The position numbers and the translations under genes were made by a program. DNA of 41,692 nt from a virus. Position 1 is the stretch's first letter. Each line of letters starts with the position of its first letter. Location: IMG/VR virus record IMGVR_UViG_3300021197_001025, positions 1 to 41,692 of that record; one strand, given 5' to 3'. Positions 4,696 through 31,848 of the stretch are shown in pieces. The notes below the pieces were generated by a model, which searched no databases, was not told the origin of the DNA, and saw only the letters and a program-made list of their open reading frames with translations.

Positions 4696-4912
4696 GTCCA
4701 TCCTCCAGCAGTACGGGCGTCTTCTCTCCCGCGTACAGCTGGCGGATGTTGTAGTCGATGTGGTCTAGAGTTTCCTCGAGGTCGAGGCCCTCGTTGAGGA
4801 ACTTCCGTACAAGTCGGGCGTGCGAGTAGATGGCGGTGGCTGGTCGGCCGTGCTGTTGACCGAACCCGACGAGGGCTTCGTCGAGTCCGTCGAAGATGAC
4901 GGCACCTTCCAA
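4682..4912 (-). CDS. Small conserved phage protein, start unclear
   Basis: About 76 residues in a frame different from the helicase. The core IFDGLDEALVGFGQQHGRP, then IYSHARLVRKFL, then DYNIRQLYAGEKTPVLL matches a short phage protein pattern I know from other genomes (DALIG... and GENTP... blocks), function unknown. The best in-frame start is a TTG at 4912 with no clear Shine-Dalgarno; an ATG at 5017 would place it far inside the helicase, and the residues it adds look out of frame. Removing one base at AATGG near 4914 would give a clean ATG start, so a sequencing error or frameshift is possible. It overlaps the helicase end by 148 bases. Confidence 0.6.
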   Translation of the reverse strand: MEGAVIFDGLDEALVGFGQQHGRPATAIYSHARLVRKFLNEGLDLEETLDHIDYNIRQLYAGEKTPVLLEDGHDLV

Positions 4913-8393: not shown

Positions 8394-9392
8394 CTAGGTT
8401 CCCATGTTGCCGACGTAGTGGTCGGTCGCTGTCTGTTCAGAGTGTCCCAACCACTGGTTCACTGCGGATGCGGGGTGTCCGGCCTTGCGCCAGAGTGTTG
8501 CCCGGTTGCGTCTCATGTCTTGCCAGGTGAAGCGTGCTCGAGGGCTGACCTTCTCGCAGGCTTCCCGCAGGACATGGTGGCCCATGTCGTACGCGGTCGG
8601 AGGCATGGTCAACCACTCCCTGTTCTCCTGCTGGGGAGGGTACCCGTACAGGAAGGGGAGGAACTCGGGCTCGACTCGCACCACCCGCATTCGATTTGTC
8701 TTGTTGCTCCAGACGTCGAGGCTCATGCGGTCCCGATCGAGGAACGGCAGCTTGGCGTCGAAGACTTCCCGCCGTCGCAGGCCCAGGTAGTAGCAGCTGG
8801 CCACGGCCGCTCGCCACTGCACGGTGGGCAGCTGCTCGAGCACGGCCTCGAAGTAGGCCGGGTCGATGTTGACTGGCTTGGGTTCCGTCTTCTTGTGCGT
8901 CGTCTTGAACTGGACAGTGACGGGGTTCTTCTCGAGCAGGTCGTCCGACATCGCAACCTTGAACAGCTGCTTGAGCTCGCGTGCGTACTTGCGAAGCGTG
9001 TTCTCCGCCTTGCCTGCTGCTCGCTGGTGCTCGAGGAACCGTGCCACCTCGGAGCTCGTCACCTTCCGGATGTCGTCGGCCATCTCCTGCTCGAGCGTCA
9101 CCATGAATCGGTGGCCCGTCTTGTGCAGTCGCTCGGGTGCGAGGTTGACCAGGTCGTGCATCGGCACCGCCGGCTCGGCTTCGGAGAGCTCGAGCTCAGC
9201 TACCCAGGCGAGCAGCTTCGCAGTGGCTGCTCGTTCGGTTGTCTTGGTCACGTTGCCCAGGCACTTGCGTCTCGCTCGGATGCGGGTGTCCGGGCGGTAC
9301 CTGCCGTACCAGTACGAGCCCTGCTGGTACAGGGTCGGAGGGGTGGTGGTGTTGTCGGCCAGTGTCGCGGCCAGTTGCATCCAGCTTGGCAT
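8394..9392 (-). CDS. int: Tyrosine-family integrase (site-specific recombinase)
   Basis: A 332-residue tyrosine recombinase that would insert and excise the phage genome. The N-terminal part is an arm/core-binding region (EVARFLEHQRAAGKAENTLR). The catalytic residues are Arg in LGLRRREVF (about 205), a beta-hairpin Lys in KTNRMRVV, box II in FTWQDMRRNRAT (about 289), His in LGHSEQ, and the nucleophile Tyr326 in DHYVG. Box II has Gln where the family usually has His or Lys. The gene has its own sigma70-type promoter (9437-9465) and the repeated CACCTACCAC leader. I could not identify an attP core nearby. Confidence 0.93.
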   Translation of the reverse strand: MPSWMQLAATLADNTTTPPTLYQQGSYWYGRYRPDTRIRARRKCLGNVTKTTERAATAKLLAWVAELELSEAEPAVPMHDLVNLAPERLHKTGHRFMVTLEQEMADDIRKVTSSEVARFLEHQRAAGKAENTLRKYARELKQLFKVAMSDDLLEKNPVTVQFKTTHKKTEPKPVNIDPAYFEAVLEQLPTVQWRAAVASCYYLGLRRREVFDAKLPFLDRDRMSLDVWSNKTNRMRVVRVEPEFLPFLYGYPPQQENREWLTMPPTAYDMGHHVLREACEKVSPRARFTWQDMRRNRATLWRKAGHPASAVNQWLGHSEQTATDHYVGNMGT

Positions 9393-9481: not shown

Positions 9482-10387
9482 TCATGCCGCTGCTCCGAAG
9501 AGCGTCAGCTGCGTGAGCTCGGGCTGGCCTCGCAGCTCGTCGGCCAGAGCTCGAGCGTTCGCCTGGTTGACTGTGCCTCCGGGGTTGACGAGGCCTTGCT
9601 CCTCGCACCACTCGTGCCAGGCGAAGGTGAAGCCGAGTCCCTTGCAGGTCGTTCGCTTGTCGGCGTGCTTGCCGGTCAGCCAGCTGCGTTCCATCTTGAA
9701 CGCTCGCTCGAGCAGGTCAGGGTGCTCGGCCCCGAGCCGGGCGATCTCCCACTTCTGGCTGGCGGGGCAGAACCAGCAAGCACTCTTCTCTGGTACTCGC
9801 AGGCCGGCGGCAGCGATCCGTCGCTTGCACTCCTCGCGGTCCCATCCCCAGTCTTGCAGTGGGTACCACCGCTCGGCCGGGCGGCCGCCGATCGTGGTCT
9901 CGTGCTTGTCAGCTCGAGCTCGTCGCTTGCGGTCGGCGGTGCTGTTGTCGTAGCCGATGACCTGAAGCGGGGGCTCGCCGGCCCAGGCCTCGTCTCGCTC
10001 TGGCCAGGCTCGAGTCAGGTAGGCCTCGATGGTGTCGGCCTTCCACTTGATGGAGCAGCCGTGCCGCTGGAACCCGAAGGCGATGCTCGGCAGAGTCTCG
10101 TTGTCGAGGCAGTTCTGCTCGAGCGTGGTGTAGGTGGTGCCTCGCCGGGTGATGTGGTCGTACCGCTTGACCCTGGTCACGGTCGGGAACCCGACGCTCT
10201 CGAGCCAGCGGTCGAAGTAGTCGAGGTACTCGTAGGTCCAGGGTGCTTCGTTGCCGACGTCGGCGAAGACGATCGCGTCAGGCCGGACGCCGAGGCGGGC
10301 GAGCTCGACCAGGATGGCGGTCGAGTCCACGCCCCCGCCGTAGTTGACGATCAGCTTTCGGCCTAAGTTTCCAGGGGTTTCGTTCAT
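9482..10387 (-). CDS. PP-loop ATPase of the PAPS-reductase/DndC-like family
   Basis: A 301-residue protein with an N-type ATP pyrophosphatase loop, NYGGGVDSTAIL (about residues 15-27), and the PAPS-reductase-like segments VFADVGNEAPWTYEYLDYF and GCSIKWK. A Cys pair in SACWFCPASQKWE (about residue 205) resembles the metal- or thiol-active segment of phage versions. The family adenylates a substrate; members act in sulfate reduction, DNA phosphorothioation (DndC) or nucleobase modification. No Dnd partner is visible, so the substrate is open. The start is the ATG at 10387 with AAGGAG 8 bases upstream. A sigma70-type promoter (10431-10459) and a hairpin at the predicted start point precede it. 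Confidence 0.8.
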   Translation of the reverse strand: MNETPGNLGRKLIVNYGGGVDSTAILVELARLGVRPDAIVFADVGNEAPWTYEYLDYFDRWLESVGFPTVTRVKRYDHITRRGTTYTTLEQNCLDNETLPSIAFGFQRHGCSIKWKADTIEAYLTRAWPERDEAWAGEPPLQVIGYDNSTADRKRRARADKHETTIGGRPAERWYPLQDWGWDREECKRRIAAAGLRVPEKSACWFCPASQKWEIARLGAEHPDLLERAFKMERSWLTGKHADKRTTCKGLGFTFAWHEWCEEQGLVNPGGTVNQANARALADELRGQPELTQLTLFGAAA

Positions 10388-10430
10388 GTCGTTGCTCCTT
10401 GGCAGGCGAGCGGGCCGGTCCCGCACTTGG

Positions 10431-10459
10431 ATCCTACGGTAACCGGCGCAGTATGTCAA
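10431..10459 (-). promoter_or_regulatory. Sigma70-type promoter of the PP-loop gene
   Basis: Minus strand TTGACA (10459-10454), 17 bases, TAGGAT (10436-10431). A GCGGG/CCCGC hairpin (10410-10424) begins at the predicted start point. A variant leader CGCCTGCCAA (10408-10399) and GGAG follow. Confidence 0.75.
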
Positions 10460-10747: not shown

Positions 10748-11166
10748 ATCTTCTGCACTCGCAGCCACTTGTTGAACTGGGCGATGCCGTCGTTGATGAG
10801 CTTGTCGTTGAACAGCACGTTCTGCGTGAGCTTCTCGACCAGGTCATCGGGCACGGCCACGGCATCGCCGGTCTTGGGGTCGGCACGGTACAGGACCATG
10901 TCGCCGGCGAGCGGGGCCGGGTAGTTAGCCAGGGCCATGGCTCGCTGGTTCACTCGGACGGCGGGGCGGATCCCGGTCAGGGCCATGTCGTCATGCCATA
11001 GGTTGAGTCCGCCCACCCCCTCGACCTCGGCGATCGAGAGGTTGGACGTTTCGTCGCAGCCGACGGCGGCGTTCAGGTCTTGGAACCCGCCGACGTACAG
11101 CTTGCGGCACATCTGGATGGGGTCGGCCGGGATGACGAGGGCGAGGGTCGGTGTCGGGTCAGGCAT
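10726..11166 (-). CDS. DUF3846-like hypothetical protein
   Basis: A 146-residue protein whose start, LALVIPADPIQMCRKLYVGGFQDLNAAVG, has the look of the DUF3846 family found in phages and actinobacterial elements. The middle has a short HDDMALTGIRPAVRVNQRAM segment and the end is helical. No catalytic motif is evident. It overlaps the upstream gene by 8 bases. The coding end and stop codon form the right arm of a perfect 14-bp hairpin (10710-10747), so the 3' end of the message may be processed or terminated there. Function unknown. Confidence 0.6.
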   Translation of the reverse strand: MPDPTPTLALVIPADPIQMCRKLYVGGFQDLNAAVGCDETSNLSIAEVEGVGGLNLWHDDMALTGIRPAVRVNQRAMALANYPAPLAGDMVLYRADPKTGDAVAVPDDLVEKLTQNVLFNDKLINDGIAQFNKWLRVQKMMGGATS

Positions 11167-11836
11167 GGGTCGGTTCCTCCTGTGTTGCGAGCTTGAAGTT
11201 CTTGCGGGCGGCGGTGACGTCGTTGGCTTGGCGGCAGGCGTAGCCGTGGCCCTCCTCGTGCGGGGTCCAGTCCACCTGCCCGACCGGCACTTGCAGGTGC
11301 CACTGTGCCTCGATGGGGCCGCTCAGCTCCTCGCACACCCGGCGGCAGGTGGTGTTCTTGCACTCGCCTCGGCTCTCTCGTGTCTCGCCTCGGCTTCGCC
11401 AGGTGTGCCGCTCGGGCACCTCGCCGCACACTGCACACGGTTCGTCGAGGCCGGCAGTCCGCTGGGCGTGGACGTACATCTTGCCGCCGCACACCTTCTC
11501 CCAGTCAGGGCCGGGGCTCGGGTTGTTCTGGGCTCGGTCGCTGTGTGTCTCCTCGACCTGTGCCATCCGTGTCTCGCCGGTCTTGGTGTTGAGCCAGCGG
11601 TCGCAGCTGTAGCCGTAGTCGGTCATGCTGTCGAACCGGGCGAACTGGTAGTCGCTGATCTCCTCATCAACCAGGCACTGGGCAGGGCCGCCGGTGTAGC
11701 TGACGTCCACGCTGCTGCCGCCGGCGAACCTGCTGCTGCGGACGCTGAACTTCTGGCCGGGGAAGCGGGCCTTCAGTCGCTTGCGGACGAGGGCCGCGAC
11801 TTCCTTGGGTTCGATCCATCTGTAGTCTCGAGGCAT
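11159..11836 (-). CDS. LPD29-like domain protein with Cys-rich C-terminus
   Basis: A 225-residue protein. Its first 85 residues (VAALVRKRLKARFPGQKFSV, then RSSRFAGGSSVDVSYTGGP, then FDSMTDYGYSCDRWLN) match the pattern of large polyvalent protein-associated domain 29, a module first described in proteins that phages and conjugative elements send into cells. The rest is rich in Cys and His (CGG, CAVCG, CKNTTCRRVC, a GHGYAC), suggesting one or two zinc sites. The ATG at 11836 follows a sigma70 promoter, a strong hairpin and the CACCTACCAC-GGAG leader. It may be an early host-interaction protein; this is inference from the domain's company elsewhere. Confidence 0.62.
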   Translation of the reverse strand: MPRDYRWIEPKEVAALVRKRLKARFPGQKFSVRSSRFAGGSSVDVSYTGGPAQCLVDEEISDYQFARFDSMTDYGYSCDRWLNTKTGETRMAQVEETHSDRAQNNPSPGPDWEKVCGGKMYVHAQRTAGLDEPCAVCGEVPERHTWRSRGETRESRGECKNTTCRRVCEELSGPIEAQWHLQVPVGQVDWTPHEEGHGYACRQANDVTAARKNFKLATQEEPTHA

Positions 11837-11885
11837 GGTGTGTTCTCCGTGGTAGGTGGTGGGTGCTCCCCGATGGAGCACCCCT

Positions 11886-11914
11886 ATGTTAGCGGGTAGG
11901 TCAGGCCGTGTCAA
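11886..11914 (-). promoter_or_regulatory. Sigma70-type promoter of the LPD29-like gene
   Basis: Minus strand TTGACA (11914-11909), 17 bases, TAACAT (11891-11886). Of 29 bases from -35 to -10, 25 match the 13.2 kb promoter. A 9-bp perfect hairpin (11861-11883) covers the start point, then CACCTACCAC (11858-11849) and GGAG. Confidence 0.85.
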
Positions 11915-12137
11915 CCATCCCGGCCAGGTGTTCTCGCACCTTGATCTCATGCTGCAACATGAGGTGCAGCAGCTGGTGCGTCTGCTTCTCCTTGCCGTCG
12001 GGCATGGTGAAGGCCTTGTCGTGGATGGTCCGCCGGAAGGCGGCGAGGTCGGCGTTGCCGATCGTCTGGATCTTGGCCTCGAGCGTGGCTCTCAGCTTGA
12101 GGTTCTCGTCGTTCAGTCCGGTCAGTTGTCGGGCCAT
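11901..12137 (-). CDS. Hypothetical early protein, 78 residues, helical
   Basis: A 78-residue protein that looks almost entirely helical: LNDENLKLRATLEAKIQTI, then DLAAFRRTIHDKAF, then HQLLHLMLQHEIKVREHL. The first helix has a heptad-like pattern, so it could pair as a coiled coil. The ATG at 12137 has AGGAG 7 bases upstream. The last codons and stop overlap the -35 box of the next promoter (11909-11914). No family recognised. Confidence 0.65.
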   Translation of the reverse strand: MARQLTGLNDENLKLRATLEAKIQTIGNADLAAFRRTIHDKAFTMPDGKEKQTHQLLHLMLQHEIKVREHLAGMVDTA

Positions 12138-13181: not shown

Positions 13182-13210
13182 ATGTTAGCAGGTATGTCAT
13201 CCCGTGTCAA
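13182..13210 (-). promoter_or_regulatory. Sigma70-type promoter, extended -10
   Basis: Minus strand TTGACA (13210-13205), 17 bases, TAACAT (13187-13182) with TGC before it. The -35 overlaps the stop codon of the upstream gene. A hairpin (13155-13175) begins at the predicted start point, then CACCTACCAC (13152-13143) and GGAG. TGACA is repeated 10 bases apart across the -35. Confidence 0.85.
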
Positions 13211-13677
13211 CCCCACAGTGTGCGGGCTGGGGTGTCTCGCTCGGGTCGGGTGTAGTACCTCGTCGGGCTGGCTTCGGCCGGCGTCAGGCCTTGGGCTTCG
13301 ACCTCGGCCAGTCGCTCGAAGGTCCGGCAGTCGCAGGCCATGAGCCAGGTCAGGCCGGGCTCGATCCCTGCCTCGTGGTCCTCGGCGTAGACGTCAGCCT
13401 TGAAGCCGGCCAGCTGGCTCGGGCAGAGGTCTCGAGCCTCGTAGCCCAGCCGCAGCCAGTGCTCGAGCTTCGGACCCCGCACCCGCTCGCAGGTCCAGAA
13501 GCCTGCGTCTTCAGTGGGTGCCACGTCGTACACCATCTGGTGCTCGTGGTGCTTGCCGTGGAAGACGAAGACCTGCCAGCTGCGGGCGGTGTAGCTCAGG
13601 GTCAGGTGCCAACCCTTCGGAGCTTGGAACCACTGGCGGCAGGCGTCGCGGATCTCGGGTAGGTGCGGCCCGGTCAT
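13207..13677 (-). CDS. Hypothetical early protein, 156 residues
   Basis: A 156-residue protein (MTGPHLPEIRDACRQWFQ then WHLTLSYTARSWQVFVFHG) with alternating strands, a WTCERVRGPKLEHWLRLGYEA helix region and a Cys pair in LMACDCRTFERLAEVE. It reads like a compact alpha/beta domain I cannot assign. The ATG at 13677 is in an ATGA overlap with the previous gene and has GAGGAGG 7 bases upstream. A longer frame to 13890 is out-of-frame reading of the 13674-14030 gene. The stop codon overlaps the -35 box of the next promoter. Confidence 0.62.
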   Translation of the reverse strand: MTGPHLPEIRDACRQWFQAPKGWHLTLSYTARSWQVFVFHGKHHEHQMVYDVAPTEDAGFWTCERVRGPKLEHWLRLGYEARDLCPSQLAGFKADVYAEDHEAGIEPGLTWLMACDCRTFERLAEVEAQGLTPAEASPTRYYTRPERDTPARTLWG

Positions 13678-14084: not shown

Positions 14085-14112
14085 ATCATACCTATCATCG
14101 AACGTATGTCAA
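14085..14112 (-). promoter_or_regulatory. Sigma70-type promoter of the first early gene
   Basis: Minus strand TTGACA (14112-14107), 16 bases, TATGAT (14090-14085). The predicted start is near 14078. A 5-bp hairpin (14060-14075) begins just after it, followed by CACCTACCAC (14058-14049) and ACGGAG before the ATG at 14030. Confidence 0.85.
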
Positions 14113-14498: not shown

Positions 14499-15032
14499 TT
14501 ATCGAAGGGGTCGGGGGTGGGACCTGTCGATCTCCAGCTTCGGAGTGGCGAAGTCCACGGTCAGGAGGGCTCGAGTGATCTTGGGGTGGGTGTTCCAGCA
14601 CTCATGCTCATGGGATGGGTCGAACATGGCGACACCTCCCTCGACGTGGGGGCAGACGATGTCCTTGGCCCTCATGCCGCAGCCTTCGGGCACCACCAGG
14701 CCCAGGTCGTACCGGAGGACGCCGGGGATGTCCTCCTCGTGCGGGAGGATCTGGGACTCAGGCCCCAGGATGGAGATGGCGGCGTTGACCAGGCACGGAA
14801 CGTCATGCAGGAACCTGGCGAGGCATGGGACCAGCTCGCAGTGGGAGTGGATCCAGTTGCCCTGGTAGCAAAGTCCGAAGACATCCCAGCCACCCTCATA
14901 GCAAACGTCTCTCCCCTTCGGGGACTCCATGAACAGCTCGTCCCTCAGAGCCTCGTATTCGCCGCGTACGGCCTTCCAGTTGTCTGCGAGGGTCTCGGCC
15001 CATTCCGCACCGTTCGGGTCGTAGAACGTCAC
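14499..15032 (-). CDS. Aspartyl/asparaginyl beta-hydroxylase-like 2OG-Fe(II) oxygenase
   Basis: A 177-residue protein resembling the catalytic domain of aspartyl/asparaginyl beta-hydroxylases. Iron-ligand His residues fit QILPHEED (about residue 100) and PSHEHECWN (about 150). Between them are the family's LRYDLGLVVPEGCGMR and GGVAMFD segments, and an Arg after the second His (KITRALLTVDF) suits 2-oxoglutarate binding. The usual MHLGL/YHLGL His is Asp here. Such enzymes hydroxylate a side chain or a lipid; the target is unknown. The start is GTG at 15032 in a GTGA overlap. It is the last late gene, after large terminase. Confidence 0.75.
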   Translation of the reverse strand: MTFYDPNGAEWAETLADNWKAVRGEYEALRDELFMESPKGRDVCYEGGWDVFGLCYQGNWIHSHCELVPCLARFLHDVPCLVNAAISILGPESQILPHEEDIPGVLRYDLGLVVPEGCGMRAKDIVCPHVEGGVAMFDPSHEHECWNTHPKITRALLTVDFATPKLEIDRSHPRPLR

Positions 15033-15568
15033 AGGAGGCGGCCTCGCTGCCCTTCGTATCGAAGCTGGTAGTGCCTCGATCCGGCGAAGGCTCGAGAGTC
15101 TGATGCCAGGTTGCCGTTGGTGGCGTAGATAAACTCGACCGATGGGGCGATCGTGCCTGTCTGGCCGTTGTAGTTCACGAAGGCCTCGTCCCAGGCCGCG
15201 TCCCGCAGGGCCTCGGTGCCGTACTCCCATGCGACTCGAAACAGCTTGGCGTTTCCGCTCGAGACGGTGGTGGCCTGGATGCCGGTGCCGATCTTGTACC
15301 CGTTCGGGAAGATCATCCGAGCGTTCCAGTTGGGGTAGAAGAGCAGGAAGTCGCCGGCAGAGTTCGGATCGACCAGCTGGGTCGGAATGCTCAGCCTCAT
15401 CTCGATCTTCAGCGTCCCGTCTTTTCGGATCGGGGTCGCCCCAGAGATGGCCAGGTTGGCCGAAAGGAACGTGCTTTCGGAGACCAGCGTGTTGTTGGTA
15501 TCGACTTGGGTGGCACTGGTCAGCGAGAGACCGTCAGCCACGAACGTGTAGTTGGTTGCTTGAGGCAT
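15029..15568 (-). CDS. Putative virion or fiber-type protein
   Basis: A 179-residue, beta-rich, Asn/Thr/Ser-rich protein (ATNYTFVADGLSLTSATQVDT, LFYPNWNARMIFPNG, SVEFIYATNG). It looks like a small structural or head/tail-decorating protein, but I cannot match a family. The ATG overlaps the terminase stop in TGATG and has AAGGAGG upstream. It ends in a GTGA overlap with the hydroxylase-like gene, so the three are coupled. Confidence 0.55.
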   Translation of the reverse strand: MPQATNYTFVADGLSLTSATQVDTNNTLVSESTFLSANLAISGATPIRKDGTLKIEMRLSIPTQLVDPNSAGDFLLFYPNWNARMIFPNGYKIGTGIQATTVSSGNAKLFRVAWEYGTEALRDAAWDEAFVNYNGQTGTIAPSVEFIYATNGNLASDSRAFAGSRHYQLRYEGQRGRLL

Positions 15569-18301: not shown

Positions 18302-18584
18302 GTGATCCCTCCGTGATGTCATCCATAGGTGGCAGCTGCGGCTGGATGTTCACCCCCCTGGACTGCATCTCGCGGATCAGGGATCCGATCGGGTTCTCAT
18401 CGGTGGCGACGGCGGAAACGCCGGCGTCCTTCAACCGTTGCCGGACCACGTTCAGATCGGCCGCCGAAGCCTGCATTCGGACCGGACCGTCTTGGGTCAT
18501 TATCTCTCGACCGTTGACCAGGACATCCAGAAGAGCCTTGTCGAGCTCGTCGCTGAGCTTCTCGATGGGGGAAGGTGACTTCAT
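18270..18584 (-). CDS. terS: Terminase small subunit (T7 gp18-like), putative
   Basis: A 104-residue protein. It has a helical start (IEKLSDELDKALLDVLVNG) and the block RMQASAADLNVVRQRLKDAG, which is the recurring core of small terminase subunits in T7-like phages (ASAxDLNVIRQxLKDN). It would recognise concatemer DNA and hand it to the large subunit. The ATG at 18584 is in an ATGA overlap with the giant internal virion gene. Confidence 0.75.
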   Translation of the reverse strand: MKSPSPIEKLSDELDKALLDVLVNGREIMTQDGPVRMQASAADLNVVRQRLKDAGVSAVATDENPIGSLIREMQSRGVNIQPQLPPMDDITEGSHEGSPGRVAG

Positions 18585-21500
18585 CGCTTGAATGCCTCCG
18601 GGACCACGGGGAGGTCCGTTGCGCGATACAGCATTCGCAGGATCGCCTGATTCTGGAATGGCAGCATGGTTGCTGCCTTGTAATACGTCTGGTCATCGAC
18701 CTCGCCTGGGCCGGCGACGTCGTACAGGATGTCGCCCATCCGGTCGGCCGTGCTTGCGGTCGGCCCCAAGCCCTGGATGACTGCTCGAGCTCCAGCGTCT
18801 CCGCTGTAGAAGCCTTGGCTGGCACCACCGCCCACCCTGTTGTCGAACAGCACGCCAGGGCTCACTGGAACGCCCAGGGCGTCCGTCAGGCCCCAGGCCC
18901 GAGAGATCGGCCCGCTGAGGCCGGAGTAGACGAAAGCCTTGTACGCCATCCCGGCGGGGTTGGTCTTCCATTCCTCGGCAGACTCGCTCAGCTTCCGCCG
19001 GCCGGACAGATGGTTGGTGATTGCGTCAGTCGTCGCACCCAGGGCCATGTAGGTGGTCAGGTACCAGAGCTGGTACTTCGCCGGCATCTGGCTCATGGGC
19101 AGCATCCGCTGGTGCTGGAACGCCATCATGAACGTCTGGAACTGATTGAGCAGCTTGCCCCAGGTGTTGAAGTTGACCAGGGGGCGGTCGAACGCCCCAG
19201 GAGTCACGACCAGGTGGCGGTTCACTTCATCATCGACTCGAGCTTGAATTGTCTCGAGCAGGTCTCGGGTCGCAACGTCGTTGATGTCCCACTCAGCGAA
19301 ACCGTTGACGAACAGCTTCTTCTCGTTCCTCATGTAGTCGTCGAAGCTCATGACTTCGCGGATCGCTCGGCCGTCTGCCAGCGTCCCCTTTGAGTACGTC
19401 TGGGAATGGAACAGCTCGGCTCGCTCGACGTTCAGCCCTAGCTGGTTGACCTTGGCGAGCTGGTACTTGCTCATGCGGACCTTCTTGAGGGCATCGGCCT
19501 CGCTCATCCCTTCGTCCATGAGCTTCTTGGCTCGGATCATCTTCTTGCTGAGCGTGGTCATCCGCTCGAACGTCAACATGCCGGCGAGCCGCTTGTTGGT
19601 GTTCGTGATCCAGTTCATGCCGCTGAGGTGGCTAGACACTTCGGAAAGCCTGGTAGAGCCGTGCTCGATCATTGCACTCACGACCCTGGCCTTGCCCGCG
19701 CCGTATCCCAGGTCGCGGACATCGAAGTCCATGTCGCTCCGTGCCCTGGTCGTGGTCATGTGGTCGGTCCACAACTGGAACAGCTCGAGATCCTTCCTCG
19801 AGAAGTTCTTCATTAGTCCGATCAGCCTGGGGAACTGGGCAAGCGATCGCGGGTTCTGGAGCAGGTACAGCGTGATCGGAGCCAGGTCGTTGAGCTGAGC
19901 CCAGCCCACGGATCCCAGCTTGTTCATGAAGTTGTATCGCTGCACGGTGCGGCCGAAGAAGCTCAAGAAGCTGTCCGGGTCGCTGATGCCTCGGTTGGGC
20001 ATCTGCCCGGTCATCGCCTGCATTGGAGTGACCAGGTCGCGGCGAGCCTTGGAGTGAGCCGAGGCGATCTTGTTGGCGAGCTCCATGTCGCCGGCTCGTT
20101 CAGCCAGGGCACGCATTCGGTTGAACTGCGTGTCCAGGACATCTGCCAGGTCGTCGGCGGTCTCAACCTTGCGACCGTCACTGGTGCGGTAGTTGTCCCA
20201 GGTCTCGCTGTTCTGCTGGATCGCCCGCCGGACTCCGATGTGGCCGGCCACGTTGTAGTCGTAGCGCATGACCTGGTTCTGGAGCCCGTCATCCAGGAAA
20301 TCCTGGACGGTCGCGTAGTTGATGCCGAGCGATCGCTCTCGCAGCGGGCGAGGGACCGCCTGCATGTGAGCAGCAACCCCGTGTCCTCGCACGGGGTCAC
20401 TGATTGCGTCTCGGATGCTGGTCGCTTGTTCGCGGTACCGCTGCCTCAGTCGGTCGAGGTATTGGGCTCGGAGTCTCTCGTCAAGACTTCCGACAGGGAT
20501 CTTCCGCTGAGGTCGAGGAGATCCTCCAGCATCTCCGTCGGGTCGCGGAGCGAGTGGACTGCCGCTGCGCGGTCGAGGGGCATCCCCTGCTCCATCAGCT
20601 CGATCAGCAGGCGAAACGTCCTCGCCTCGAACTGGTTTCGAGCCAGCGTCTGGAGCCTCTGCACCTCGTCGAGGGGCAGCTGGTAGATCGGGAGTGGTGA
20701 CATCGGGTGATCCCTTCGGTGTTACTTTAGCAGCCATGCTACGGGTTGTCAACCCGTTCTTGAAGACCATGTCAAGAGCGTTGTCATCGAGCCAGGAATC
20801 CGGATCGACGACGTCGAACTTGGCCTTGTTGGTCCTGGGTACGTCAGCGGTGTAGAGCCCCATGCTCTTGAGCTTGACTCGCCGGCCCCCACCAAGGTCC
20901 CAATATCCGCCGTTCTCGTTGACCTCACGCCAGGTTCGAGTCGGGTTGTCTGCGTAGTCGTTGGCAACCATGCCATTCGGAACGTGCCGGCCAGTGTGAA
21001 TCGAGCGAGCACTGAGGCGTTCCATCACCTTCCTGGGCGGCATGTCCACCGTGACGACATGGACGTCGTAGCCCGCGTCTGCGAACTTAGAGATCATCTT
21101 CGAGAGCGTTGCCTGGCTGTCGCCGACCTTCGGAATGATGGCGTTAGACCCGCCTTCGATGACCTGGTCAATCATGCGGTCCAGGATCATCTTGGATTCG
21201 TCGTGCGTTCCGAAAGCCCCCTGATCCTCGAACTCGGGCAGCTTCCGCTTGATGAAGTCGCTGTCCACGATGTAAGCACCCTGGGACGCCTGGATCGAAT
21301 CGGCCATGGTGCTCTTGCCGGCCGCAGCTGGCCCCGTCAGGAACACCACCTGCCGCTCAGCTCGTGGCGTTTCAGCGCGGCCTCCGCCCACCCCCGGCTT
21401 GATGGCATTCTCGTCTCCTTCGACTCGAAGCCCCATCATGTCTTCGACGATCTGGTTGTGAAGCTCCTGCCTTTCAGGAGTGAATGCCCCACTTTCGTCC

Positions 21501-24500
21501 GTGTGTTGCTGCCGCGTCGTTCCGAGTCTCGCGGCGTTTGCCTCAGCCTCAGCTTCGACTCGCATGGTGCGGTTGGTCGCCATCGGCTCCTGGATGTTCC
21601 GAAGCGAGGCCAGGCTCGCCGGTCCGTCGGGGCCGACCAGGACGTCATGCAGGACCTGGTAGGGGTTCAATGGGTCGCCGGTAAACATCGACGGACCATC
21701 ACTGCTCTCGACCCGGATTCTGCTGTTGGCTTCCTTGAGAGCCGTCCGCAGCTTCTTCGGACCCAACGTGTCCAGGGCATGGACGAACGCGGCCACCATC
21801 GGCGTATCGAATCCGACATGGGGCACCTGGGGGATCTGGTTGAAGAAGTAGTCGTCGAACGTCTGCTTGCTTTTCTTCCATTCGCCGTGGGCCAGGAGGG
21901 CCTTCGACCAGGCGTCGTCGATGTACGCCAGTCCGCCGTTGAAATCTGGATGGGCGTTCCTGGCGAAGCCCATTTGGTTCAGTGACATCACGAGCGGCGA
22001 AGCACTCTCCCAGCGATCTCGAGCCTGGGGCTGGGCCTGGGATAGGACTTCGTCTCTGCCGACGCGCTGCCCGAACCGTGGCGTGCCATCAGGCCCGACG
22101 TAGCTGGGAGTCTCGAACTCCTGCATGACTCGAGCTGCCATGAGCGACTGGACGTAGTCCTTGCCCTCGGGGGTGAACTTGTTCCCCTTCGTGTTCCACA
22201 TTCGGGCGAAGTCGTTGTTGTCGATGACCCCGTCGTCTCGCAACCGGATCAGCAAGTCCAGGCCGAAGTCTCCCTGGTCCAGGGCAGCCCGGAAGGTTGT
22301 CTCTTCCTTAGCCTCGTCCAGGTGGCGGTTCAGGAAGGCGAACGTGCCATCAGAAATCTTCTGCGACCTGGCCGCAGCTTCGGAACCCTTTGACTGGGTC
22401 GCGGCAGCTCTGCGGTTTGCTGCGGTAGACATGGAGCCCGGCTCGCCAGGTTCCTTCATCACTCGGACCAGGACTGGCTTCTCGAATCCATCCACGACCT
22501 TGGGGTCAATACCGGCGTCAGATGCTGAGTCTCTCACCGCCTGCTTGAGCTTGACCGCGTCCTCGGGCTTGGCACCGTTGATCCCCTCGTGGATCTGCTG
22601 CATCGCCATGGTTCGGTTTGCACCGGAGTCTGGGTATCCGTCAAGCGTGACGATCGGGGTCCCGTACTCGGTGCTGGTGTCCATGGCAGCGAACCGGCCG
22701 TGGTCAGGGTTGCGGACCATGGCCTGGTTGACTTCCATGCTGTTCGAGCCGCCCGTGGGATCGGCGTAGTCGGCTGCTCGCTCGTTCATGGCTCCGTAGA
22801 CCGGATCTCGAGGGAAGCCGCCCTCGGCCGTTCTGCCGCCGTAGACGTTGTTTGACGGGTTCAGGTCCGGAGCCTCGACGACGGCCCAGTACCCAGGGAT
22901 CGACTCCCCGGTGCCGAACCGGATCACGGTCTCCTTGCCGAATGCGTACCGGACCGGAGCACCTGGGTATCCGCCGGCGGAGATGTCGTCTGGAGCCTTG
23001 AACGGATCGCTTCGGTAGCCACGCAACGGCGCGAGATCCTGGACGGGAGCTCGTTCCATTCCTTCCTCGAGTTGCTTTCGAGCTGCTTCGGCGGCCTCGT
23101 CCAGCGGATCCTTGGGCGGAGCTGCTGGCTCAGGCTCTTCCCTGGGTGCTGGGGCATCGGGCAGATCGTCGGGGTCGCGGTGGCTAGCGAACACGTCGCG
23201 GCCGGCATCGCGGTTCATCTGGCTGGCGATGTCTTCATCGACCTCGAGCTCGTCCACGGTGCGGCCTCGAAGGTCTCGCTCCTCGAGAGCTCGAGCCATG
23301 GTGTCAACGAACACGATCGGGTTGCGGCGGATCTTCTTGGGGTCATAGACCACCGGGAAGTATCGGCCCAGGTTGCCGTTCTCGGCATCCAGGATCCCGG
23401 CCCTGACCAACTGATCGCCCATTCCGTCGAAGTATTTCTCGACCCGGTCAGCGGCCTCGAGGATCAGGGGATGCACGTCCTCGGGCATCTTGACGTCGTA
23501 GCCCATCGCCTTGGCGTGCTTGCGGCGGAGAAAGTCGGTGACGGCACCCTCGAACTCGTCCTGGCCGCCCAGCATCTTGAAGTTGAGCGGCTGCCCGTCG
23601 TAGGTGATCGCTCCCCCTGAGTTCCTGTCCTTCTTGGCTCGCCGGTAGATCCGGTCCAGGTTGGACGTCAGCGATTCGGCTCGCTTCCGCAGCTGCGAGG
23701 TGATGCCCTCGGCTGATGCTCCACGCCTGGCGGTGAACGCCTGGGTGGCGGACTGCTCGGTGATCGTGTGGGCGGAGCCGCTGACCGTGCGGTAGAAGTC
23801 CTCGATGACGGCGACTGCCCTGCCGGCGGTTCTCGCCCCAGGAGTGACGATGCTCTGGGCTCTCGAGTAGAGGCCCGTGATTCCGGAGACGGTTTGGTCT
23901 GCGATCGACCCGTCGAGCTGGCCCTGGGTAGCGATCCGGTTCAGCCTGGCGGAGTTGGAAATCTCAACGACCTGCTCGAGCAGGGTCAGGACTTCCTGGT
24001 CGGGGTGAGCCAAGACCTCGAGCTGCCAGCCTTCGCGGTTTGCCTTGGCAGCCAGCTGACGCAGCTTGACGTTGACGGGGTGCTTGGGGTCTGCCGGCCG
24101 CAGCGGGGCGACGACCTGGCGTCCTTGTAGCTGAACGGGCTCGGGCTGTAGCGGAGAGATAAAAGGCTCAGGCTTTAGCGGAGAATTTGGGACCAAGGGT
24201 TCCGGTGCCAGCATCATGTCCAGGTCAGCCTCGGATTCGTCCAGGCTGGTCTTGATCGTGACGAGCTCAGCAGATTCGTACGGCGTGTCGATGTCGGCTT
24301 CTCGCCGGACGTTCGGGCTGTCAGCGACCGTCTCCATCGCCTTCTGGAGTCGCTTCTCGCGGAACCGCATGAGCTTGTTGCTGGCACCCTTGATCGCAGG
24401 GCGACCGACGAAGTGCCCGATCGGCGGGATCGCTGCACCGAACGCACCGCCCAAGGAGGCCGCGAAGATTTCGTTGTAGGCCCCTTCGATTTCGGTCGAG

Positions 24501-25165
24501 GGGTTGAGCTCGTTCAAAGCCTGCTCGAACGCCAGGTTGCCGGCCGCGCCGACGCCGGCGGTCGCGGCGGTCCTGCCGGCCAGAGCCTTGCCGCCGCCCT
24601 GCAACGCCTTGATTCCGGAGACCCCTTTGTACCCCAGGCGAGCAAGGCCGATGCCGCCGGCCAGGTTGACGGGGTCGCCGATGAGCTGAGCCAACATGCC
24701 CAGGCCTATGTCGAACGCACCGCTCAGGGTGGTGGGATCCATTCGGTAGGCTTCGGCCAGGGCGACGTTGTTCTGTCTTGCGAGGGCCAGGCGATGCTCG
24801 GCCTGCTCGGGGGAGAACGCGAGATCGAACCAGCCCTGCTCGATGGCCAGGCGAACGTCGGGGTTCTCGAGGCTGTACTTGCCTCGGATGTAGTCGTATC
24901 CGTCGAAGCTGAGGTCGCTACCTGGGACCGTGAACGACTGGTGCAGGAACTGGCCGACTGCGCCGGGGAAGCTAGTCAGTGACTGGATCGCCCACCATTC
25001 CGACCAGTTTAGATCGGGGCTGTTGCGGAGCTCGGGCTTGGTGAGCTCCTCTCCGGGGAGCCGCATGATCGGGCTTGGCCCGTTGTATTGGGCGTCGTAC
25101 GCGCCGACCACCATCGCTTCTCTGGCGTTGGGCATGTCCTGCATACTTGCTTGACGAATCGTCAT
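18581..25165 (-). CDS. Giant internal virion/ejection protein with DdrB-ParB and zeta-kinase regions
   Basis: A 2194-residue protein. Residues about 1-740 and 1590-2194 look like a T7 gp16-type ejection protein: long helical, with membrane-like stretches and a conserved C-terminal tail. About 745-1035 (DLNPSNNVYGGRTAEGG, GANRTMAMQQIHEG, MSTAANRRAAATQSK) has the DdrB/ParB-like signature of polyvalent proteins. About 1268-1468 has a zeta-toxin-type kinase with P-loop VVFLTGPAAAGKST, YIVDSDFIK and VTVDMPP. A Pro/Arg/Gly linker (about 1470-1560) follows. These extra parts would be ejected into the cell with the DNA. The start is the ATG at 25165 in an ATGA overlap. An 85-codon gene is nested in the linker. 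Confidence 0.85.
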   Translation of the reverse strand: MTIRQASMQDMPNAREAMVVGAYDAQYNGPSPIMRLPGEELTKPELRNSPDLNWSEWWAIQSLTSFPGAVGQFLHQSFTVPGSDLSFDGYDYIRGKYSLENPDVRLAIEQGWFDLAFSPEQAEHRLALARQNNVALAEAYRMDPTTLSGAFDIGLGMLAQLIGDPVNLAGGIGLARLGYKGVSGIKALQGGGKALAGRTAATAGVGAAGNLAFEQALNELNPSTEIEGAYNEIFAASLGGAFGAAIPPIGHFVGRPAIKGASNKLMRFREKRLQKAMETVADSPNVRREADIDTPYESAELVTIKTSLDESEADLDMMLAPEPLVPNSPLKPEPFISPLQPEPVQLQGRQVVAPLRPADPKHPVNVKLRQLAAKANREGWQLEVLAHPDQEVLTLLEQVVEISNSARLNRIATQGQLDGSIADQTVSGITGLYSRAQSIVTPGARTAGRAVAVIEDFYRTVSGSAHTITEQSATQAFTARRGASAEGITSQLRKRAESLTSNLDRIYRRAKKDRNSGGAITYDGQPLNFKMLGGQDEFEGAVTDFLRRKHAKAMGYDVKMPEDVHPLILEAADRVEKYFDGMGDQLVRAGILDAENGNLGRYFPVVYDPKKIRRNPIVFVDTMARALEERDLRGRTVDELEVDEDIASQMNRDAGRDVFASHRDPDDLPDAPAPREEPEPAAPPKDPLDEAAEAARKQLEEGMERAPVQDLAPLRGYRSDPFKAPDDISAGGYPGAPVRYAFGKETVIRFGTGESIPGYWAVVEAPDLNPSNNVYGGRTAEGGFPRDPVYGAMNERAADYADPTGGSNSMEVNQAMVRNPDHGRFAAMDTSTEYGTPIVTLDGYPDSGANRTMAMQQIHEGINGAKPEDAVKLKQAVRDSASDAGIDPKVVDGFEKPVLVRVMKEPGEPGSMSTAANRRAAATQSKGSEAAARSQKISDGTFAFLNRHLDEAKEETTFRAALDQGDFGLDLLIRLRDDGVIDNNDFARMWNTKGNKFTPEGKDYVQSLMAARVMQEFETPSYVGPDGTPRFGQRVGRDEVLSQAQPQARDRWESASPLVMSLNQMGFARNAHPDFNGGLAYIDDAWSKALLAHGEWKKSKQTFDDYFFNQIPQVPHVGFDTPMVAAFVHALDTLGPKKLRTALKEANSRIRVESSDGPSMFTGDPLNPYQVLHDVLVGPDGPASLASLRNIQEPMATNRTMRVEAEAEANAARLGTTRQQHTDESGAFTPERQELHNQIVEDMMGLRVEGDENAIKPGVGGGRAETPRAERQVVFLTGPAAAGKSTMADSIQASQGAYIVDSDFIKRKLPEFEDQGAFGTHDESKMILDRMIDQVIEGGSNAIIPKVGDSQATLSKMISKFADAGYDVHVVTVDMPPRKVMERLSARSIHTGRHVPNGMVANDYADNPTRTWREVNENGGYWDLGGGRRVKLKSMGLYTADVPRTNKAKFDVVDPDSWLDDNALDMVFKNGLTTRSMAAKVTPKGSPDVTTPDLPAAPRRGAEAPDAGSKPVRGEDVSPADRADGAGDAPRPRSGSPLAPRPDGDAGGSPRPQRKIPVGSLDERLRAQYLDRLRQRYREQATSIRDAISDPVRGHGVAAHMQAVPRPLRERSLGINYATVQDFLDDGLQNQVMRYDYNVAGHIGVRRAIQQNSETWDNYRTSDGRKVETADDLADVLDTQFNRMRALAERAGDMELANKIASAHSKARRDLVTPMQAMTGQMPNRGISDPDSFLSFFGRTVQRYNFMNKLGSVGWAQLNDLAPITLYLLQNPRSLAQFPRLIGLMKNFSRKDLELFQLWTDHMTTTRARSDMDFDVRDLGYGAGKARVVSAMIEHGSTRLSEVSSHLSGMNWITNTNKRLAGMLTFERMTTLSKKMIRAKKLMDEGMSEADALKKVRMSKYQLAKVNQLGLNVERAELFHSQTYSKGTLADGRAIREVMSFDDYMRNEKKLFVNGFAEWDINDVATRDLLETIQARVDDEVNRHLVVTPGAFDRPLVNFNTWGKLLNQFQTFMMAFQHQRMLPMSQMPAKYQLWYLTTYMALGATTDAITNHLSGRRKLSESAEEWKTNPAGMAYKAFVYSGLSGPISRAWGLTDALGVPVSPGVLFDNRVGGGASQGFYSGDAGARAVIQGLGPTASTADRMGDILYDVAGPGEVDDQTYYKAATMLPFQNQAILRMLYRATDLPVVPEAFKR
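20446..20703 (-). CDS. Nested 85-residue gene in another frame of the ejection-protein linker
   Basis: An 85-codon frame fully inside the 18581-25165 gene. Its product reads like a real helical protein: PIYQLPLDEVQRLQTLARNQ, ARTFRLLIELMEQGMPLD, AVHSLRDPTEMLEDLLDL. In contrast the main frame there is Pro/Arg/Gly/Asp low complexity. The codons favour CTC, GAG, GAC and CTG, as in neighbouring genes. AAGGGA lies 7 bases before the ATG. An extended -10 promoter (20724-20752) lies just upstream. It begins right after the zeta-kinase region ends, so an antitoxin or immunity role is a tempting but unproven guess. It could also be a former main-frame segment after paired frameshifts. Confidence 0.5.
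   Translation of the reverse strand: MSPLPIYQLPLDEVQRLQTLARNQFEARTFRLLIELMEQGMPLDRAAAVHSLRDPTEMLEDLLDLSGRSLSEVLTRDSEPNTSTD
20724..20757 (-). promoter_or_regulatory. Candidate extended -10 promoter with a dyad on the -35
   Basis: On the minus strand: TTGACA (20752-20747), 17 bases, TAAAGT (20729-20724), with TGC directly before the -10. The -35 sits in a perfect dyad, acgggtt-gtc-aacccgt on the plus strand (20741-20757). The predicted start is near 20717, 14 bases before the nested ATG. The spacing and the TGC match the early promoters at 11.9 and 13.2 kb. It lies inside coding sequence, so chance cannot be excluded. Confidence 0.45.
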
Positions 25166-27309
25166 GGCATGAACCCCATTCCGCCCTTGGCGTCGGTGCC
25201 GGCGGTGTTGATGTATGTCCGGATCCAACCGTCAGCCTTGCGAGTCTGGGCTGTTCCGTCTGATACGGCGGTTTCTTCTCTGGCGTCAGCGAAGTCGATG
25301 TATTCGCCAGGGCCCAGCAAGTCGTCGCCAAACTGGTCCATCGGGACCCACCCCTCGCCGTTGATTGACGGCCTGGCGGTGAAGTATTCGTCGATCCCAC
25401 GAGACTTCAGTGCGTCGAGGATGATCTGCTGACCGTCTTCCAGGAATCTCTGGTCTGGGTGCAGGCCCATCCGAGGAACGAGGGCCACGTCTCCGTCGCC
25501 GAGCGTGATGCGGTCGTACTCGGCCCCCAGCTGGTGCATGGTCATCTTGGAGGCTTGTTCCCTGACCTGGTCAGGGGAAGCACCTTGCAAACGACGGCCC
25601 ACGATCATGGCGTTCTCGATGAAGTAGCCGGTGGCGGAGGCCATGATTGTCGGGTCCGACACGATGAGATCCGGGCCGAGTATCCATCCGTCAGCACCTG
25701 CGTGCTCTTTCAGGATCCCCATCACATGGTCTCGAACTTCGTTCTCAGGCCTGAACCCGGTGAATCCCAGCACTGGAGCGACGGCATCAATGTCCTTCTG
25801 GGTGTATTCGGGACCTTGGTCGCTGATCGGAGTGGTTCGGACGCGATCGAGGATCTTTTGAAGGCGGTTGTTGTCAACGGTCGGCTGCCCATTCATGTCG
25901 AACAGAACGGACCCTTCGGTGTGACTTCCAATGATTGCAACCAGGTGACGCTCTTGCGGGGTGCTGGCCTGCTCCGCCACGGCAGTGAACGCATTCCGGT
26001 CTGGATGGGCAGCGAGGATGATCATCGTCTGGATGGCGTTGTCGCTGGCGGTTGCATCCCTGGCCATGGCCTGCTGAAGCAAGCCCGTAGCGACCTGGGG
26101 TGCGGGGTACCTCATCGTTCCGAGCAAGATCCCGGCCGCTGCCGGCGATGATCCACCGATGTACCCGGTGTCCGGGTCGTACAGGTTCATGCCGGCCAGG
26201 GCATCGAACTGCGACCTCGAGTCCCCTGGCAGGCCTATGCCCTGCATGGCGTTGAAGGTCCGCAGCTGCTCATCCTTCCGTGTCTTGCCGGCGGTGAACG
26301 ATCCCAGGAGGGTCGATCGCTGGGCAGCCGTCAAACTGAGGATATGGTCCTGGTCGAGGATCTTGGGGTCTGTCAGGAACGCCTGCATGTCTTGCTGGCT
26401 CGAGATCGTGATGGGTTCGCCGTGGACATCCAGCAGATCGAAGCTCGCCTCAGCTCCGGTCTGGAGGGTCGCCAGTCGCTCGTGCAGGTACTGGTAGTAC
26501 GATCGCTGGACTTCGTCCCTGAGATCGCCAATCTTGCCGGCGGGCACCTGGCTCTGGAAGTCTGCCAGGGTTCTCATGCCCCAGGCGGTGCCGATCAGAG
26601 ATTCGACGTGGGGAGTGATGACCTTGTCGAACACGAGGTCGTCGATTCGGGTCTGGTACGCGGCATCCGGCTCGTCGGCCTGCTGCGGGAACATCTCGAT
26701 GATGTCGCCGGAAACGCGGTCGATGTAGTCGGACATAAGTGGCGTCGGGTCGCCGCCCTCTGCAAACAGCCGATCAGCCTGGGCGACCTCGCCGTAGATC
26801 CCCTGGCCCATTGTATCGAGCTGCATGTCCAGGTAGTCCTGACGCCGCTGGAGGCCGCGACCATAGAGGCCACGCTCGACACCAGGCAGCACGCGGTCCA
26901 GGAAGCCCTTGCGGTAGCTGTCAGACTTGCCTTCCAGGTAGGGCGTGAACCGCTCGAGGATCTCGCCGCGAATGGCACCTGAGTCTCGAGCTACGAGCTG
27001 GCCATTCGGCCCCTCTTCCCAGACGCTGATCTCCCAGGCAGGGTCATCAGACTCAATTTCCGTTGCGAACGCCGGCAGCTCCATGGCTCCGGTCTCGACG
27101 CCCAGGCCGACCTCGACGGATCGGATCTCCTTGACCTGGCGGAGTGTTCGCATGGTGGTGGCCAGGCCGATGTTGAGGGCTTGCACGAGCTGGCTCGCGT
27201 TCCCCGGCCGCTGCGATCGCTGGAGGCCGGCCATGCTGGGGCCTCGCATTCCGAGCTGGCTCGCTTCGATGTTTGGAGCCTGGAACCTGCGAGCGTCAAA
27301 TTGGCTCAT
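25162..27309 (-). CDS. Internal virion protein (T7 gp15-like)
   Basis: A 715-residue, mostly helical protein with no membrane segments. It starts MSQFDARRFQAPNIEASQLG and has an N-terminal helix QLVQALNIGLATTMRTLRQV, then long stretches such as FTPYLEGKSDSYRKGFLDRV and QRRQDYLDMQLDTMGQGIYG. Size, composition and position between the gp14-like and gp16-like genes match the middle ejection protein of T7-like phages, which helps form the DNA-conducting channel across the cell envelope. The ATG at 27309 is in an ATGA overlap. Confidence 0.75.
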   Translation of the reverse strand: MSQFDARRFQAPNIEASQLGMRGPSMAGLQRSQRPGNASQLVQALNIGLATTMRTLRQVKEIRSVEVGLGVETGAMELPAFATEIESDDPAWEISVWEEGPNGQLVARDSGAIRGEILERFTPYLEGKSDSYRKGFLDRVLPGVERGLYGRGLQRRQDYLDMQLDTMGQGIYGEVAQADRLFAEGGDPTPLMSDYIDRVSGDIIEMFPQQADEPDAAYQTRIDDLVFDKVITPHVESLIGTAWGMRTLADFQSQVPAGKIGDLRDEVQRSYYQYLHERLATLQTGAEASFDLLDVHGEPITISSQQDMQAFLTDPKILDQDHILSLTAAQRSTLLGSFTAGKTRKDEQLRTFNAMQGIGLPGDSRSQFDALAGMNLYDPDTGYIGGSSPAAAGILLGTMRYPAPQVATGLLQQAMARDATASDNAIQTMIILAAHPDRNAFTAVAEQASTPQERHLVAIIGSHTEGSVLFDMNGQPTVDNNRLQKILDRVRTTPISDQGPEYTQKDIDAVAPVLGFTGFRPENEVRDHVMGILKEHAGADGWILGPDLIVSDPTIMASATGYFIENAMIVGRRLQGASPDQVREQASKMTMHQLGAEYDRITLGDGDVALVPRMGLHPDQRFLEDGQQIILDALKSRGIDEYFTARPSINGEGWVPMDQFGDDLLGPGEYIDFADAREETAVSDGTAQTRKADGWIRTYINTAGTDAKGGMGFMP

Positions 27310-30535: not shown

Positions 30536-31183
30536 TCATCGGCCCTCGGCCGGTGGCGGCGGGGCACTTCCAAACATGGGGCCAGCGTTCGGAAGGGCTG
30601 ATCGCTTCCTGACTGGGTCGTTTCTCGGGATCCGGGCATCGGCGACCTGCCGTTCCTGGCCGATCATCGCATCCTGCGTCTGAGAACCCTGGAGACGACG
30701 CTGGAACTCCATCGCCGCAGCCTTGACGATGTTCTCACGGAGATGCTCCGAGAGGTCATCCCATGCCATCTTTTGGATGACATCGACCTGGATCGTGTCG
30801 CTTCCGCCCACTGCCGTGCCGGCGTCTGCATCGTAAATCTCCTGGGTGCCGCTGCCCGACGAGCGGAGCCCAAGCGTCCGATGGCCGTCGCTTCCGGTCG
30901 CCTGGACGCCCAGGATGTTCCCGCTGTTCAGTGCCAGGATCTGCGTGGCCGTGGCGGACTTGGCATAGATCATGTTCTCAGGCCACCCCATCGCCTGGGT
31001 GCGGATGTTCGCCCGCTCCAGGAACGAGAGTGCTCGGCCGGCGACCGTGCCGTCGTTTGCCGAGGTCGGTGCGGCGGCAATCGGGAACTCTCCGATCGTC
31101 TCGAGCAGCTCATTGATCGCCTCGATAATCAAGTCGTCAGTGCTGGTATAGCTGCCGTTGGGCAGCGATCTGTTCAGTGCCAT
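30536..31183 (-). CDS. Tail tube adaptor (T7 gp11-like), second copy
   Basis: A 215-residue protein with the fold pattern of T7 gp11 (tail tubular protein A): an early helix IEAINELLETIGEFP, a second helix GRALSFLERANIRTQAMGW, a strand region ILGVQATGSDGHRTLGL, and a C-terminal helix DLSEHLRENIVKAAAMEFQR. Adaptors ring the portal and connect it to the nozzle. The neighbouring gene (31183-31848) has the same layout, so there are two tandem adaptor genes. It starts where the upstream gene stops. Confidence 0.75.
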   Translation of the reverse strand: MALNRSLPNGSYTSTDDLIIEAINELLETIGEFPIAAAPTSANDGTVAGRALSFLERANIRTQAMGWPENMIYAKSATATQILALNSGNILGVQATGSDGHRTLGLRSSGSGTQEIYDADAGTAVGGSDTIQVDVIQKMAWDDLSEHLRENIVKAAAMEFQRRLQGSQTQDAMIGQERQVADARIPRNDPVRKRSALPNAGPMFGSAPPPPAEGR

Positions 31184-31848
31184 CAGTGGTACCCCCGTCG
31201 GCTAGTGTGTGAGAATCGGCCACGGATCGCCGTTGCCTCGCTGGTTGCCAAGATGTTCACGTCGCCCTGATTGATCTGATCCTTGTGCATCAGCATTTCC
31301 TGGCGGCCGACAAGCATGGCCAGCTGCGACTGCATCTCGGGCTGAAACTGGTAAGCCATGTTCACGTCCAGGGCAGTCTTGGCGATGACGTAGTCCATGA
31401 ACGTCTCGGGAATGTAGTCGAATCGGACTCGGTACTGATATTCGACCTTGAGGTCGGAGTCGAAAGTGAAGTCGTTGTCTTTCAGGTTGAACAGCCTGTC
31501 GGTGCCGTTATCGTCCTTCATCACCACCGGGACCTGTCGGCTGCTGCCGACCGTGTCTATCCGCAGAATCTCGCCTGTTCCCCCTGCCGGCGTTGGCAGG
31601 TTCGCCTGGTTCCCGGCGGTCAGAGTCAAAGTGACGTCGGTCTCGGTGTTCCAATACCAGCCCTTTTCCTGGAGCTGCCGTTCGCAGCGATCCAGGAACC
31701 GCTCGACATAGGAGGCGGTGCTGGAGCTCGAGCTGCCCTCGGCGGTATTGGTCTTCTCAACTGGGGATACCCCGCCCGCTGGCTTGGCCTGGTCCATCTT
31801 GCCGACCAGGTTCAGGACGCGGTTTACTGCGTCAGCCTTCGTGGTCAT
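31183..31848 (-). CDS. Tail tube adaptor (T7 gp11-like), first copy
   Basis: A 221-residue protein with the gp11 layout: KADAVNRVLNLVGKMD, then a Ser-rich loop, the helix YVERFLDRCERQLQEKGWYW, the strand run TETDVTLTLTAGNQANLPTP, and the helix PETFMDYVIAKTALDVNMAY. The W-(Y/F)-(W/F)-N-T-E block after the second helix is typical of gp11. The ATG at 31848 is in an ATGA overlap with the small membrane protein gene. See the following gene for the second copy. Confidence 0.8.
   Translation of the reverse strand: MTTKADAVNRVLNLVGKMDQAKPAGGVSPVEKTNTAEGSSSSSTASYVERFLDRCERQLQEKGWYWNTETDVTLTLTAGNQANLPTPAGGTGEILRIDTVGSSRQVPVVMKDDNGTDRLFNLKDNDFTFDSDLKVEYQYRVRFDYIPETFMDYVIAKTALDVNMAYQFQPEMQSQLAMLVGRQEMLMHKDQINQGDVNILATSEATAIRGRFSHTSRRGYH

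Follow-up and report, generated by a model that had tools for sequence, protein, structure and literature searches.

A small gene of 85 codons is almost certainly overprinted in the +1 frame of a giant open reading frame (ORF) in the window, by which we mean the whole 41,692-nt stretch of viral DNA that was analysed. Zeta kinases are toxins kept in check by small antitoxins, and a small gene directly after a zeta kinase is found in otherwise unrelated viruses. We consider it rather probable that the nested gene encodes an antitoxin or immunity partner of the kinase, which would be the best fit because the gene accompanies the kinase domain and directly follows it.

The 41.7-kb window belongs to a T7-like phage of the temperate type, possessing its own RNA polymerase and an integrase, together with genes for a helicase, a connector, a capsid, tail proteins and a terminase. 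The giant ORF is placed between the tail genes and the terminase. The features of the phage and of its giant gene that matter here are the following:

1124-3511, minus strand: single-subunit RNA polymerase, about 29% identical to the polymerases of cultured phages
7168-7677, minus strand: Mu Gam-like protein
8394-9392, minus strand: integrase
18581-25228, minus strand: giant ORF that hosts the nested ORF, 2215 aa from TTG or 2194 aa from ATG
20972-21367, minus strand: Zeta_toxin (PF06414) kinase domain of the giant ORF (Pfam E = 6e-14; Walker A motif GPAAAGKST)
22457-22909, minus strand: ddrB-ParB domain of the giant ORF (Pfam E = 4e-10)

The early region also carries a PAPS-reductase-like protein (9482-10459, minus strand), a gene with the polyvalent-associated domain LPD29 (11159-11950, minus strand) and an aspartyl/asparaginyl beta-hydroxylase-like protein (14499-15230, minus strand). 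Two adjacent genes elsewhere in the window (31183-31848 and 30536-31183, minus strand) both match the tail protein family phrog_446, so a tail gene may have been duplicated in tandem.

The kinase domain of the giant protein has both the fold and the Walker A motif of zeta kinases, and PF06414 scores above its cut-off in the window as well as in the diverged relative L019 (Walker A motifs GPAAAGKST and GNAASGKSS, respectively). The C-terminal 620 residues are about 22% identical to large proteins of Vibrio and Pelagibacter phages, and one weak match is named as a putative internal virion protein. Because ddrB-ParB and Zeta_toxin are joined in one ORF of 2215 aa, and because of the matches to large phage proteins, we regard the product as an ejection-type polyvalent protein in the sense that PMC5512222 gives to the term. 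Gene position and the weak matches suggest a virion protein that enters the host by ejection.

The nested ORF lies entirely within the giant ORF, in the linker after the kinase domain, and has start signals of its own:

20446-20703, minus strand: nested gene of 85 aa in the +1 frame of the giant ORF, ATG start (product MSPLPIYQLPLDEVQRLQ...TSTD)
20711-20717, minus strand: Shine-Dalgarno-like GAAGGGA, 7 nt before the ATG
20724-20752, minus strand: sigma-70-type promoter of the nested gene (TTGACA, 17 bases, TAAAGT, with TGC before the -10)
20741-20757, unstranded: perfect 7-bp dyad over the -35 (ACGGGTT-GAC-AACCCGT)

The original prediction had placed an 85-codon frame at these coordinates, out of frame with the 2194-residue protein and starting just after the zeta-kinase region, and this holds: the ORF stands directly behind the domain at 20972-21367. 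Its claim of codon usage like that of the neighbouring genes is borne out too, as the nested frame scores a log-likelihood of +0.404 per codon, within the normal in-frame range of the phage, while 421 other +1-frame windows average -0.466 (sd 0.127, maximum 0.066) and none of them reaches the nested score. When all large genes of the window were scanned, the nested ORF was the only true alternate-frame outlier; three alternate frames with a higher codon score proved to be real genes with misset ends or overlapping starts, and hence are not nested genes. The main frame of the giant protein is of low complexity across the nested ORF, rich in Pro, Arg, Gly and Asp, just as had been described. A complete ORF in another frame with its own start signals, and a coding signature joined to selection on the nested frame, are two marks of an overprinted gene, and both are found here.

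The promoter boxes are present as claimed (TTGACA, 17 bases, TGC-TAAAGT), and they form the single best TTGACA/TATAAT match of the 6.6-kb giant gene. The Shine-Dalgarno sequence lies at the right distance, 7 bases before the ATG, and a transcript start is predicted near 20717. Among 300 synonymous-codon shuffles, none had an equal promoter at that place. The perfect dyad does exist, but two of the seven bases of its left arm are mismatched in the close relatives L001/L002, and it was looked for in the diverged relatives L015 and L019 and is absent there. Given this lack of conservation the dyad is probably without function; regulation through it is rejected, and the description of the promoter as regulated-looking is therefore unsupported.

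Two promoters of the same class precede early genes:

11886-11916, minus strand: early promoter, identical to the one at 13182 in 27 of 31 bases, followed by a Shine-Dalgarno sequence and an ATG
13182-13212, minus strand: early promoter (GGTTGACA...CTGCTAACAT), followed by a Shine-Dalgarno sequence and an ATG

They are near-identical 31-nt repeats (GGTTGACACGG...GCTAACAT). When the window was searched with these two, the nested promoter ranked third and fourth, and when the nested promoter of L002 was used as the query, the two early promoters were the next-best sites (21/31 and 20/31, followed by 18). The nested promoter thus looks like a member of the host-polymerase class of this phage and not like a late promoter. 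With such a host-type promoter of its own, the nested gene could be transcribed by the host RNA polymerase without the T7-like polymerase, that is, in a lysogen or just after DNA entry. Further TTGACA sites occur in the window at 10431-10459 and 14085-14112, each followed by a Shine-Dalgarno sequence and an ATG. An internal promoter serving a C-terminal fragment of the giant protein was also considered and is less likely, since some 350 bases separate the predicted transcript start from the first in-frame ATG, which has no clear Shine-Dalgarno sequence.

The closest relatives, L001 and L002, are IMG/VR contigs that differ at 9 of 8039 bases and were counted as a single relative. The suggested comparison with relatives favours a gene, as the nested ORF has the same length there and its product is 79% identical. 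Both promoter hexamers and the Shine-Dalgarno sequence are unchanged, and from where the spacer ends up to base 24 of the nested gene there is no difference. Per opportunity, changes that alter the main frame but leave the nested product the same exceed main-silent changes (ratio 2.0 in the nested region, 0.19 elsewhere; p = 2.5e-5), an excess confined to the nested region of the giant gene; this ratio mainly shows that the main frame is relaxed. The direct preference for nested-silent changes in the region, however, reaches only p ~0.06 for the window and L002, which would not be proof of coding if this pair stood alone.

Among the diverged relatives, L015 and L019 are 55-56% identical to the window phage in the C-terminal domain and keep the kinase domain, of which the L015 contig covers only the end. 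Each has a +1-frame ORF in the same linker. That of L015 has 73 codons and follows a perfect TTGACA-17-TATAAT and GAGGAAGG; that of L019 has 75 codons and follows TTGACG-17-TATACT and AAGGAGG. In the window, L002, L015 and L019 alike, no other site in the entire giant ORF scores as well as the nested promoter, which stands 19-20 nt before the ATG, and the nested ORF is one of the alternate-frame ORFs with the highest scores in its gene. The codon signal of the nested ORFs is weaker in L015 and L019 than in the window; L015 is AT-richer than the window, yet has the same promoter placement. Five lineages in which no kinase was detected (L013/L014/L016, L017, L020, L024/L025 and L026/L027) show no promoter and nested ORF at that place. 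The kinase carriers may be one clade, so that the co-occurrence may reflect a single gain. No nested gene was found in PSS2 and L008, although each has a large ORF with a zeta domain, so the association of kinase and nested gene is not universal. Integrases are present in the window and in L019, and none was seen in two records that lack the kinase, L025 (42 kb) and L026 (36 kb). Peptide patterns for the nested protein and for the C-terminal domain, run against about 85,000 genomes of bacteria and archaea, recovered no prophage carrying either. Two plasmid homologues of the zeta domain are annotated as 'zeta toxin family protein', and the one examined is a standalone gene.

Haloarchaeal tailed viruses came up when the kinase domain was used as the query; in them the annotated zeta-toxin protein runs on past the kinase. 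Four cultured ones, of which HCTV-1 and HVTV-1 have known laboratory hosts, have an unannotated nested gene in the +1 frame right after the zeta domain:

HCTV-5 (L028), 4764-4916: nested gene
HVTV-1 (L031), 4761-4898: nested gene
HCTV-1 (L032), 4755-4874: nested gene
HCTV-16 (L033), 4755-4874: nested gene

The codon scores of these ORFs range from 0.35 to 0.67, the next ORF reaching at most -0.18, and the main frame over the nested gene is rich in Arg and Gly. They encode the conserved acidic peptides APERPPPDASAEEIQEWMDESFSYALAEG and MPERPGPDATAAEIAEWMEEDFGEAVAEG. Substitutions fall preferentially where they are silent in the nested frame: between HCTV-5 and HVTV-1, nested-silent changes stand at 12/66 vs 3/112 for main-silent ones, and between HCTV-1 and HCTV-16 at 5/55 vs 0/97. 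For nested-frame selection the archaeal pairs give p = 5e-4 and p = 0.005, and pooling them with the window and L002 (three comparisons) gives p = 2.4e-5. A TATA box and a Shine-Dalgarno sequence precede the nested gene in HCTV-1 and HCTV-16, and TATAAATA and GGAG lie upstream of the ATG in HCTV-1. In all eight haloarchaeal virus records matched, annotation shows nothing under the match but a single 'zeta toxin' protein, which illustrates how nested genes escape standard annotation.

The same neighbourhood recurs without nesting in Mycobacterium phage Phrappuccino, where the C-terminus of gp57 is a zeta domain and a separate gene of 90 aa comes directly after it:

Phrappuccino gp58 (L034), 5271-5543: 90 aa, with an N-terminus (ERPQTYREAADWF) that resembles the archaeal nested products (ERPGPDATAAEIAEWM)

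A short motif common to L019, the archaeal products and gp58, and loosely to the window product, was spotted post hoc and is no more than a lead; profile comparison gives it no support.

As to the products themselves, no similarity is detectable among those of the window, L015 and L019 (shuffle tests, p = 0.07-0.9), and homology among them is rejected on these values. Profile comparisons of the three with the archaeal set found no relationship, and searches of known families, antitoxin families and folds gave no match for any of the three. For the L019 product a four-helix structure is predicted, of fair confidence even though no alignment was used (pLDDT 86). The window product is likewise predicted to be helical, at low confidence, and this low-confidence model has weak matches to helix-turn-helix-like structures.

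That the ORF and its promoter are chance products of GC-rich DNA seems very unlikely to us. Long alternate ORFs are indeed common in GC-rich genes (178 ORFs of at least 80 aa), and the single close relative pair carries the modest selection signal described above. Against this, independent lineages, the AT-richer L015 among them, repeat the pattern of codon scores, promoter position and 19-20 nt spacing, and nested-frame selection is seen in the archaeal viruses. If the gene is real, it might nevertheless have nothing to do with the kinase and encode a lysogeny-expressed or early host-takeover protein, for instance a small regulator, with the linker simply serving as coding room. We hold this to be possible, though clearly less probable than a partner of the kinase. 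The host-type promoter, the integrases of the window and L019, the helix-turn-helix-like matches of the window model and the unrelated appearance of the products in three lineages would all be in keeping with it. However, that model is of low confidence, the nested ORF is missing where the kinase is missing, and a small gene directly follows the zeta domain in the archaeal viruses, as a separate gene does in the mycobacteriophage.

The linkage to the kinase would equally be expected if the nested product were a chaperone or assembly partner, holding the kinase folded or silent until packaging, and not an antidote; Arc1, the antitoxin of the AvrRxo1 kinase, was itself initially described as a chaperone (PMC4938570). 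We think this improbable, as an early or host-type promoter class poorly suits a factor that is needed together with the late structural proteins. The original prediction had guessed at an antitoxin, an immunity factor or a lysogeny-expressed protein. Its core, a separate gene beside a zeta kinase, is well supported by codons, conservation, promoter class and recurring layout, but the antitoxin role is one that we infer, the product having no family match.

Taken as a whole, an overprinted gene acting as an antidote to the kinase is the explanation we favour, and we judge it reasonably likely. On this reading the gene is overprinted, in the +1 frame, in a flexible linker behind the zeta-like kinase of a giant ejection-type polyvalent protein. 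Read most simply, the toxin of a toxin-antitoxin pair may have become a domain of an ejected protein, while the linker kept its antitoxin gene out of frame or was the place where that gene arose. The virion would bring the kinase into the newly infected cell, where it would act; the nested gene, transcribed and translated from the incoming genome before the late genes, would then switch the kinase off, most likely through binding and neutralisation by its small helical product. Cells with a resident prophage would be immune to the kinase that superinfecting relatives bring in. More tentatively, the layout may be a recurrent one across domains of life, in which phages and archaeal viruses build zeta-like kinases into ejected polyvalent proteins and encode the antitoxin in an overprinted +1-frame gene under its own domain-appropriate promoter.

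If true, the toxin would travel as protein and the antidote only as DNA, so that a cell destroying the incoming DNA would keep the toxin without the antidote, while a lysogen would be immune. This would explain how a phage injects a toxic enzyme and still makes use of the cell. If the nested genes are antitoxins, ejected phage effectors bring hidden antidotes with them, and the layout would offer a simple route to the partner genes of orphan toxin domains.

Several known systems share parts of this arrangement. As in epsilon/zeta and PezAT (PF06414), a zeta-family kinase adjoins a small gene whose product is predicted to be helical or acidic. In contrast to both, the kinase here is a domain of a giant phage protein and the small gene lies downstream, out of frame within the same ORF; no similarity of the small gene to epsilon, PezA or other known zeta antitoxins was found. 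The best-ranked NCBIfam family for the kinases of the window and L019 is XopAJ/AvrRxo1 (NF041405), with 28 and 15 bits, respectively, far under the family cut-off of 300 bits. In AvrRxo1:Arc1 the antitoxin gene also lies downstream of the kinase (PMC4938570), but Arc1 is a separate gene of 98 aa and not nested. Its motif KExFD(x25-27)(Y/L)ExxYY is absent from the nested products, although the downstream small gene exists.

Polyvalent proteins of phages and conjugative elements are described, in the available part of PMC5512222, as very large, with effector-like domains, and as thought to enter the cell with the DNA. The giant protein resembles them in its size and in joining ddrB-ParB with effector-like domains, but that part of the paper mentions no overlapping or nested partner gene, and the word 'overlap' does not occur in the paper. 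The temperate T7-like phages LUZ100, Pasto and HTVC019P have their own RNA polymerase and integrase and use host-type promoters for early and lysogeny genes, as far as the available part of PMC10134795 describes them. The window phage agrees with them in all three respects and differs in that no nested gene within a virion protein is reported in that part. Its RNA polymerase also sets it apart from this group, sharing only about 29% identity with cultured phages.

Rz1 is a small gene wholly inside Rz, in the +1 frame and with its own translation start, and its product is a lysis lipoprotein produced together with Rz. The nested gene is of the same build, but has its own host-type promoter and is placed after the toxin domain of a virion-type protein; the nested genes of HCTV-1 and HCTV-16 differ from Rz1 in having an archaeal TATA promoter. 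Overprinted genes occur in viruses (PMC8227390), and the nested gene resembles these in being read from a second frame of a larger gene.
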